From Nitrososphaera sp. (lineage in GTDB: Archaea; Thermoproteota; Nitrososphaeria; Nitrososphaerales; Nitrososphaeraceae): a stretch of DNA of 64,000 nucleotides. The notes under the pieces are model-generated. The model was not told the DNA's origin and did not search any database. It saw only the letters and a program-made list of their open reading frames with translations. Positions 6,475 to 56,947 of this stretch are shown one piece after another; within the stretch, counting starts at the first letter, position 1, and each line of letters starts with the position of its first letter. A program made the translations under genes and the position numbers. The stretch covers positions 1 through 64,000 of the forward strand of contig JAJUFP010000005.1 in assembly GCA_029263715.1 (NCBI GenBank). The letters are read 5' to 3'.

Positions 6475-6552
6475 CATCATTTTGCATAGTTACAGTCAAA
6501 TATCGGTCCATCAGTCGGGAATTGTAGCGTAGCCCGGTCGTCTAGTGGCCAA

Positions 6553-6575
6553 TCTCCAAGTTCTGGTAGGGCTAG
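6553..6575 (+). other. tRNA intron 1 (D-loop, non-canonical position)
   Basis: This 23-nt insert lies at the end of the D-loop. GGCC (6547-6550) pairs with GGCT (6570-6573), with 3-nt bulges AAT and AGG. Cutting each bulge after its second base, as the archaeal splicing endonuclease does, restores a standard D-arm. Confidence 0.75.
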
Positions 6576-6591
6576 GGATTCCAGGCTCTGG

Positions 6592-6609
6592 ATCTCATGA
6601 AGAAAAGAA
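6592..6609 (+). other. tRNA intron 2 (anticodon loop, position 37/38)
   Basis: This 18-nt insert lies after base 37 of the anticodon loop, the canonical archaeal intron site. Removing it joins CTCTGG to A and closes a perfect 5-bp anticodon stem. The bulge-helix-bulge is weak here, with a mismatch in the central helix. Confidence 0.75.
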
Positions 6610-6652
6610 ACCTGGAGACAGCAGTTCGAATCTGCTCCGGGCTACCATTCTT

Positions 6653-8221
6653 TTATTGCGGTCTTGGTCCAGCGTTGACTATCTCTTTAGAGACGGAGCC
6701 GAATTTTTCAAAATTCTTGACAAACAGCAGCGCCAGCCTCTTTGCTGCGGCGTCGTATTTGTCCTTGTCAGACCAGGTATTCCTTGGATCAAGGATCTCT
6801 GGAGGCACATTGGGGCACGAGGTAGGCATGTCCAGGTTAAAGATAGCATGGTGTTTGACAGGCGCTTTATCTATCTCCCCGCTTAGAGCAGCTGTTACCA
6901 TGGCCCTGGTGTATGCAAGGTTCATCCTCTTGCCTATGCCGTACGGACCGCCTGTCCAGCCGGTATTTATCAGATAGACGCGCGTGCCATGCTCGGTTAT
7001 TTTCTTGCCCAGCATCTTGGCATACTCTTGTGCGCGAAGTGGCATGAATGGGCCACCAAAGCAGGTAGAGAAGGTTTCCTTTGGCTCGGTAATCCCCCTC
7101 TCAGTGCCGGCCAGCTTGCTGGTATATCCCGACATAAAGTGGTACATGGCTCCCTCCTTTGTTAGCTTGGCAATGGGCGGCATGACACCAAACGCATCGG
7201 CCGTCAGAAACACAATTGTCTTTGGATGGCCTGCCATGCTGGGTATTACCGCGCCATCGATGTAATCTAGCGGGTAGACCACACGTGTATTTTCTGTCAG
7301 GCTGCCATCTGCATAGTCCGGATCGCGAGTCTCGTTGTTAATGACCACGTTTTCCATGAGCGAGCCGAATCGAATGGCATTCCAGATCTGGGGCTCGTGC
7401 TCCTTTTTGAGGTTGATGCACTTGGCGTAGCAGCCACCTTCAAAGTTGAACACGCCGTTGTCAGACCAGCCATGCTCATCGTCACCTATCAGTCTCCGCT
7501 CTGGATCCGCCGAAAGTGTTGTCTTGCCAGTGCCCGAAAGTCCGAAAAACAGGGCCACGTCTCCATTCTTTCCAACGTTGGCAGAGCAGTGCATGGGAAA
7601 TACCTCTCTTTTTGGCAGAAGGAAGTTCATGATGGAAAACATAGCCTTTTTGATCTCGCCGGCGTAAGACGTTGACCCAATCAGGACTATCTTTTTCTTG
7701 AAATTGATTATGATGAAGGTCTCCGTTCTTGTGCCTTCAGTAGCTGGCTCTGCCGCAAAGTCATCGGCAGAGATGAGGGTGAATTCCGGTTTAAAGTTCT
7801 GCAGTTCTTCTGGTTCGGGGCGGATGAAGATCTGTCGAGAGAAAAGGTTGTGCCAGGCCCGGATATTGATTATTCTGATGGGAAGTCGGTTTTCCGGGTC
7901 AGCGCCAACAAAGCCGTCAAAAACAAAAAGATCTCTGTTCTCTATGTGCTTCTTCATACGCTGATATATCTTGTCAAATTTTTCTTCAGATATGGGGTGA
8001 TTGACTTTGCCCCAGTCCACGGAATTATGGGTAACTTCATCATCTACGATGAACTTGTCATCCGGCGAGCGGCCGGTAAACTTGCCTGTCTTGACTGACA
8101 GAGCACCGGTAGAGGATAGCAGGCCTTCTTTTCTTTCAAGTATAATTTCAACGAGTGATGCTGTAGACAGATTTCTGTAGACGTTGCCAGTCTTTATTTC
8201 CGTTTCCAGCAGTTTCAACAT
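6653..8221 (-). CDS. pckA: Phosphoenolpyruvate carboxykinase (ATP)
   Basis: This enzyme interconverts oxaloacetate plus ATP with phosphoenolpyruvate, CO2 and ADP, and provides the gluconeogenic exit from C4 acids. The 522 residues show all ATP-type hallmarks: GRSP at 50-53 (substrate binding), the P-loop GLSGTGKT at 228-235, and LIGDDEHGW at 245-253 (metal and nucleotide binding). In an autotroph using a 3-hydroxypropionate/4-hydroxybutyrate-type cycle it would feed sugar synthesis; that is inference. The gene has its own promoter with a palindrome between the TATA box and the ATG, suggesting regulation. Confidence 0.95.
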
Positions 8222-55886: not shown

Positions 55887-55933
55887 GTTGCGCAATATTA
55901 ATATAATTGTGCCCGCATTTATTGTTGACCAAC

Positions 55934-56947
55934 ATGACTGCACAATTAAATTCTCTTGCGACCATAAACTTGGAGGATTTCGGCATCGCCGAATCGGTGA
56001 ACAGATGTCTTGCACCCAAGCTGGACGAGCTGAGAGGGAAGAAAATCATATTCAACTCCGATGACAAGAGCCTGGTTCCGGCAAATGGCTGGGAGTCGAA
56101 GCTTGGTTCTGCTTATTGCGCAACAACAATAACCACGGTCAGGCCAATCAGAGAGAACGCGATGGTAGCCGCCGTCGATTCCAGCAGCATCAAGCTGGCA
56201 GAGACAGAGGATGGCGGCCTGTACGCGATAAAGTGCGGCATCGCCATGGCCTACGGCGGGGCCGCCCTCATGCATTTCAAGATTGGCCCCATGCTTTACT
56301 ACATAAGCGAGGGCAATCTCCGTGACTCTGAACTTGATAGCAGGCTGGCAAGGCTGGTCCTTGCAGACAGCGACGTGGCAAGGCGCCTCATAAGGGTCAG
56401 GGCCGAGCGGGCAATCCAGCATGAGCTGTCCAGCCATATGAGAAATTCCATAATTCTGGTCGACGGGTCGCTAAGGACATCAGTATTTGAAGACAGAAAG
56501 ACAGGCATGTCCAGGATTGCTGAAAACTGCGTGCTGCACAAGAACCTGATAGCAGGGATAAGCAAGAACACCAAGCTCAAGATTCTGGAAAGAGCCGCTG
56601 CCCTGCTAACGAAGGTAAGTGGTCCAGCCTACATCGAGGTTGACATGATAATCAAGAGCCTGGTCCGCAACACCATCGGCTCAAATCTTGTGGCCAAGCT
56701 GGACAAGAATAGCCCGGTGCTCCGAGTCGACATCGTTGGCGATAAAGAACAGACGCTTGGCAAGCTGCTGGGCAACGATCCTATTGCATGCGGTTATCCG
56801 GAAACCCTCAGACTGGCCCACCATATCTCCACATTCACAAACACGGAGGTGACGTGCCTTCGCAGCCATGTCCTCAACAATTACGGGGTGACAGAACTGG
56901 CCACCGACGACATCAGGAGAACCCTACTGGGGTCGATAATCGTATGA
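55934..56947 (+). CDS. nurA: NurA 5'-3' nuclease
   Basis: NurA works with HerA in DNA end resection for recombination. The 337-residue protein has the catalytic aspartate D82 (AAVDSSSIKL), a second in SIILVDGSLRTS, and the conserved AYIEVDM and GYPETLRLAHH blocks of the NurA domain. ATG 55934 is chosen; a TTG three codons upstream is possible. The stop overlaps the herA start (ATGA). mre11 and rad50 are not next to it here. Confidence 0.88.
   Translation: MTAQLNSLATINLEDFGIAESVNRCLAPKLDELRGKKIIFNSDDKSLVPANGWESKLGSAYCATTITTVRPIRENAMVAAVDSSSIKLAETEDGGLYAIKCGIAMAYGGAALMHFKIGPMLYYISEGNLRDSELDSRLARLVLADSDVARRLIRVRAERAIQHELSSHMRNSIILVDGSLRTSVFEDRKTGMSRIAENCVLHKNLIAGISKNTKLKILERAAALLTKVSGPAYIEVDMIIKSLVRNTIGSNLVAKLDKNSPVLRVDIVGDKEQTLGKLLGNDPIACGYPETLRLAHHISTFTNTEVTCLRSHVLNNYGVTELATDDIRRTLLGSIIV

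Follow-up and report, generated by a model that had tools for sequence, protein, structure and literature searches.

A probably functional tRNA-Gln(CTG) gene with two probable bulge-helix-bulge introns in Nitrososphaera sp., and the intron series of its orthologues across the order

In an ammonia-oxidising archaeon of the soil type, a tRNA gene was located at positions 6531-6647 on the forward strand of the window, the whole analyzed stretch of 64,000 nucleotides with which contig C7 begins. With a probability of about 96%, this gene is a functional, single-copy tRNA-Gln(CUG) carrying two protein-spliced bulge-helix-bulge (BHB) introns, whose transcription, cleavage and ligation we infer from sequence. 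It is a further member of the published multi-intron tRNAs with D-arm introns, which are documented, together with heterotetrameric (alpha-beta)2 endonucleases, in Thaumarchaeota, Aigarchaeota and Crenarchaeota.

Gene layout and splice motifs

The 117-nt gene includes two introns and an encoded CCA. It reads AGCCCGG TCG TCTAGTGGCCAA [TCTCCAAGTTCTGGTAGGGCTAG] GGATT CCAGG CTCTGG [ATCTCATGAAGAAAAGAA] A CCTGG AGAC AGCAG TTCGAAT CTGCT CCGGGCT ACCA, where the square-bracketed parts are the introns, TCTCCAAGTTCTGGTAGGGCTAG at position 21/22 and ATCTCATGAAGAAAAGAA at 37/38. Exon 1 (6531-6552), near invariant across the genome's own family (f1), holds the 5' strand of the acceptor stem and positions 8-21, and is followed by the 23-nt D-loop intron (6553-6575). 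Exon 2 (6576-6591) contributes the 3' strand of the D-stem, the 5' strand of the anticodon stem and the anticodon CTG (6588-6590), after which the 18-nt anticodon-loop intron (6592-6609) occupies the canonical position 37/38. Exon 3 (6610-6647), like all these parts on the plus strand, comprises A38, the 3' strand of the anticodon stem, the variable loop, the T-arm, the 3' strand of the acceptor stem, A73 and CCA, with the tRNA body at 6610-6644 and CCA at 6645-6647.

Removal of both introns leaves a perfect 73-nt tRNA-Gln(CTG), which together with CCA gives a 76-nt spliced form with a standard cloverleaf. The mature stems are a 7-bp acceptor stem, D-stem GTCT/GGAT, anticodon stem CCAGG/CCTGG and T-stem AGCAG/CTGCT, and the anticodon loop is CUCUGGA with CUG at 34-36. 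The coordinates, intron lengths and anticodon given by the earlier sequence-only reading were exact, and ARAGORN called the spliced 76-mer tRNA-Gln(ctg).

A conserved AT-rich element, the GTCAAATATCGG region (6497-6511, plus strand), lies approximately 25-35 bases upstream of the tRNA and is likely a TATA-type promoter box. Most parsed genomes of the genus have the same motif about as far ahead of the gene. Downstream, an ATP-type phosphoenolpyruvate carboxykinase-like gene on the minus strand (6653-8221) faces the tRNA tail to tail, its end six bases away; some relatives (L056, L060) likewise have a similar coding sequence near the tRNA.

The BHB motifs were assessed with one fixed geometry, consisting of a 4-bp central helix and cleavage between the second and third bases of each 3-nt bulge. 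At the D-loop intron, GGCC (6547-6550) pairs with GGCT (6570-6573) over the 4 bp of the central helix, and the two 3-nt bulges read AA↓T and AG↓G (arrow, cut), just as the sequence-only reading had described it. The 21/22 sequences of relatives were gathered by BLAST with the window gene, no half-site pattern being imposed, and their central helices were paired at 132/132 positions in 33 distinct sequences, with slid registers reaching at most 97/132. Complete pairing was also observed for the 10/11 introns (108/108 positions, 27 distinct sequences) and the 24/25 introns (20/20 positions, 5 distinct sequences) of relatives, and slid-register values for all three helices were 0.74 or lower. Compensating changes were present, namely GGCC/GGCT vs GGTC/GACT vs GGTC/GATC in the 21/22 helix, and CGGT/GCCG vs CCGT/GCGG in f14.

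The 37/38 intron shows canonical geometry, with the central helix CTCT/AAAG containing one C.A mismatch and bulges GG↓A and AA↓A. The weakness ascribed to this motif from the start was evident in its pairing score of 0.80, compared with 0.81 and 0.74 in registers slid by +3 and -2, respectively. The helix was imperfect (C34.A) in most members of f1 and complete (GGGG or GGAG) in families f2, f7, f12, f13 and f15, and single-sequence folding placed it in a slightly different register. Because the score does not exceed all slid registers and the helix carries the mismatch, the case for this splice site comes more from conservation and tRNA geometry than from the helix. Chance is ruled out for both introns by their fixed positions across the order and by the perfect 21/22 central helix over many distinct introns.

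Intron distribution across the order

Some match to the Gln gene was obtained in 61/61 genomes searched, and 53 Gln genes, including that of the window and a few with TTG, were extracted and parsed, the relatives L047 and L055 staying unparsed. Of these 53, 49 had two or more introns at fixed positions. Within family f1, all 31 parsed genes carried the 21/22 and 37/38 introns in register. A further intron at 10/11 was present in 21 of them and absent from the other ten, the window gene included. Closed genomes of the genus, among them G011, G014 and G015, share the 21/22 and 37/38 pair. Beyond f1, 8 families of the order have both introns in register: the pair was found in families f4, f7, f9, f12, f13 and f15, with an additional 10/11 intron in f14, and with both 10/11 and 25/26 introns in f8. 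Families f2 and f3 have a D-arm intron at 24/25 instead. None of the parsed Gln(CTG) relatives with introns lacked the one at 37/38, and the Gln(CTG) of family f10 (L085/L086) is intronless, with the same mature layout and a standard D-loop. The rarity implied by the sequence-only reading was thus overstated, since the two introns are shared by 31/31 parsed genomes in f1 and such genes already appear in the literature.

Among the 31 parsed genes of f1, mature-part identity averaged 0.978 (minimum 0.932). The 21/22 introns, 16-31 nt long, averaged 0.753 (minimum 0.419), and the 37/38 introns, 14-26 nt long, averaged 0.755. Such near-invariant exons with drifting introns are the pattern of a spliced, functional gene.

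Several further observations concern intron size, gain and loss. D-loop introns of only 13 nt, near the smallest able to hold both BHB half-sites, were found in families f7, f12, f13 and f15 (L070-L075). In two genomes of f8 (G066 and G067), intronless Gln(CTG) genes (L107, L110) have a Gln(TTG)-like body, which would fit replacement of the intron-laden CTG gene by a copy whose anticodon had been switched. The organism's own tRNA-Gln(TTG) (L095, G000:C3 about 55899-55996, G000 being its own genome) carries a 10/11 intron, a half-site of which pairs with acceptor-stem bases. As this intron is present there and in the Gln(CTG) of many relatives and absent from the window gene, it was either lost in the latter or gained elsewhere.

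The same D-loop intron position with a GGYC/GGYT helix was seen in distant tRNA-Gln, among the matches listed, in Lokiarchaeota (L139, L159, L174, L193), Caldarchaea-type contigs (L169, L171, L175), Aenigmatarchaeota (L120, L177, L197) and Thermoprotei HyVt-129 (L153); the contig pattern scan that returned them required the half-site GGYT and is biased to it. The shared intron may be very old, or it may have been gained repeatedly at a favoured site.

Comparison with published systems places the window gene among known types. In Thaumarchaeota, BHB introns at noncanonical positions, two or three per tRNA and with a clade-specific consensus, have been described (PMC8450103), and the window gene does not differ in kind from the thaumarchaeal introns modelled in tRNAscan-SE 2.0 in that work. 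Caldiarchaeum subterraneum has multi-intron tRNAs, one with a CUG anticodon that is printed as tRNA-Glu[CUG] (PMC3293823). That genome shares with the window gene the anticodon, the multiple introns and noncanonical D-arm positions; it differs in belonging to another order and in the sequences and lengths of its introns. In the Caldarchaea-type contigs named above, Gln(CTG) is interrupted by the same introns at 21/22 and 37/38. Thermoproteales have multi-intron tRNAs with up to three introns (Sugahara 2008; Fujishima 2010, via PMC4033280). They are alike in having several BHB introns per tRNA and an (alpha-beta)2 endonuclease, but represent another lineage, and the intron positions of the window gene are long conserved rather than the product of a recent burst.

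In two MAGs of the sister family f8, Gln(CTG) genes with four introns were found, at positions 10/11, 21/22, 25/26 and 37/38. The introns measure 38, 19, 45 and 44 nt in G043 (L082, G043:C77:11421-11642; precursor 222 nt) and 40, 17, 37 and 41 nt in G063 (L104, G063:C181, minus strand; precursor 211 nt). The mature 73-mers are identical, and the introns are 0.71, 0.84, 0.55 and 0.53 identical in order; this combination makes an assembly accident unlikely and indicates a mature part under selection. The 25/26 BHB is imperfect, with three of four pairs in each genome, and a search of 400 genomes in the order with a pattern for this intron matched G043 and G063 only. If spliced, the gene would rather probably stand one above the published archaeal maximum of three introns per tRNA that was found (PMC8450103, PMC3218864, PMC3293823); a literature search for four-intron tRNAs matched only organelle, algal and protist papers. 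Its priority is uncertain in view of the multi-intron richness of Atabeyarchaeia and Freyarchaeia, for which PMC11291895 gives 228 introns in three genomes and multiple introns in more than half of the tRNA genes. If all four introns are spliced, the gene would need four cut-and-join events, and its first and second BHBs would borrow bases of the acceptor stem and the D-loop, setting splicing in competition with cloverleaf folding.

Detection, copy number and splicing machinery

ARAGORN found nothing on the window or on the isolated 117-nt gene, either with or without the intron option, and assigned half-spliced forms to Gln, Pyl or Thr, depending on settings. The Rfam tRNA model at its gathering score did not report the gene in the window, and in the whole genome the model gave no more than a sub-threshold fragment of it, at 19.8 bits. 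The expectation that gene finders may miss the gene was thereby borne out. tRNAscan-SE 2.0 has a BHB model built specifically for thaumarchaea (PMC8450103), and such introns thus lie within the design scope of a current archaeal gene finder.

The genome itself is generally intron-rich, with about a dozen intron-bearing tRNAs recognized by eye. Its tRNA-Asn(GTT) (L097, G000:C2) and tRNA-Glu(TTC) (L098, G000:C1) have D-arm inserts and Rfam scores below the cut-off, and tRNA-Trp(CCA) (L030, G000:C1:244083-244218) apparently has two introns, in the T-loop and at 37/38.

The assembly spans 1.92 Mb in 14 contigs and is 93.6% complete. BLAST searches of it with the gene and its mature sequence returned just two Gln genes, the window locus and the isoacceptor Gln(TTG) on C3, plus short partial matches. 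The sequence-only reading had named a second, intact tRNA-Gln(CTG) as the mark of a pseudogene, and none was found by BLAST in this 93.6%-complete genome.

A second endonuclease subunit, which the same reading had proposed looking for, was found among two PF01974 homologues, one catalytic and one without the catalytic histidine. The catalytic EndA (182 aa, ORF at G000:C5:19028) was aligned to 3p1z, 3ajv and 2cv8 and matches the Aeropyrum pernix endonuclease 3p1z over its length (E 1.7e-48). It retains the GIDHAP histidine and, in the crenarchaeal-type loop region, the K-P-K/R motif, which reads K-P-K; the crenarchaeal loop lysine is important for relaxed cutting (PMC12397907). The second homologue (204 aa, ORF at G000:C5:104729) is closest to full EndA chains (5x89, 1a79) and has a non-His residue aligned with the catalytic His of 1a79. 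The two proteins would represent the alpha and the non-catalytic, structural beta subunits of an active (alpha-beta)2 endonuclease. This two-subunit set agrees with the alpha2beta2 type published for Thaumarchaeota, which are rich in unusual tRNA introns (PMC4090602; PMC3218864). One full-length match to RtcB ligase was also present (E 5.2e-179).

Splicing model, alternatives and implications

In the proposed precursor, a helix atop the D-stem would join D-loop bases G18-G19-C20-C20a to a GGCU close to the first intron's 3' end, and anticodon-loop bases would form a weak pairing with the 3' portion of the second intron. The heterotetrameric (alpha-beta)2 EndA would cleave at AA↓U and AG↓G for the first intron and at GG↓A and AA↓A for the second, always inside the 3-nt bulge, and the exons would be ligated by RtcB. 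The predicted fold of the full precursor has the D-stem formed with the BHB on it, and the acceptor and T arms already in place, so excision of the 21/22 intron could take place when folding is almost complete. In relatives and in the organism's own Gln(TTG), the 10/11 intron pairs with acceptor bases 5-7 and U8, and this pairing suggests that its splicing precedes or competes with acceptor-stem formation.

That the gene is a decayed pseudogene with insertions, CAG codons being read by another tRNA, appears extremely unlikely. Its escape from ARAGORN and Rfam in the window would fit decay, but the genome yielded no other Gln(CTG), the exons are near invariant against drifting introns, and the same inserts occur family-wide, single-contig genomes included. 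CAG might be read through wobble by the tRNA for TTG, yet that would leave the exon conservation unexplained. Practically negligible probability was given to the 37/38 insert being the sole intron, with the mature tRNA keeping the D-loop insert as a D-arm extension. Single-strand folding does keep the D-stem, with the insert as an extension; across species, however, the insert varies from 13 to 31 nt and its conserved part is exactly the BHB half-site, the intronless f10 orthologues show a standard D-loop at this place, and an EndA of putatively relaxed type is present.

Splice junctions displaced by one or two bases are very unlikely. The weak 37/38 motif would allow such a displacement, but the intronless orthologues of f10 and all relatives lead to the same mature form, and a single rule, cutting after the second bulge base, fits the 10/11, 21/22, 24/25 and 37/38 introns.

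Introns in the organism's Gln(CTG), Gln(TTG), Asn, Glu and Trp tRNAs cause common tools to miss or under-score these genes, and claims of a "missing tRNA" for such genomes consequently need care. For its lineage, the window gene is unremarkable. Through the order, one orthologous tRNA carries from zero to four introns at fixed positions, with drifting introns perfectly paired with fixed exon half-sites. This range within a single ortholog offers a clean natural series for the gain, loss and splicing order of archaeal tRNA introns.
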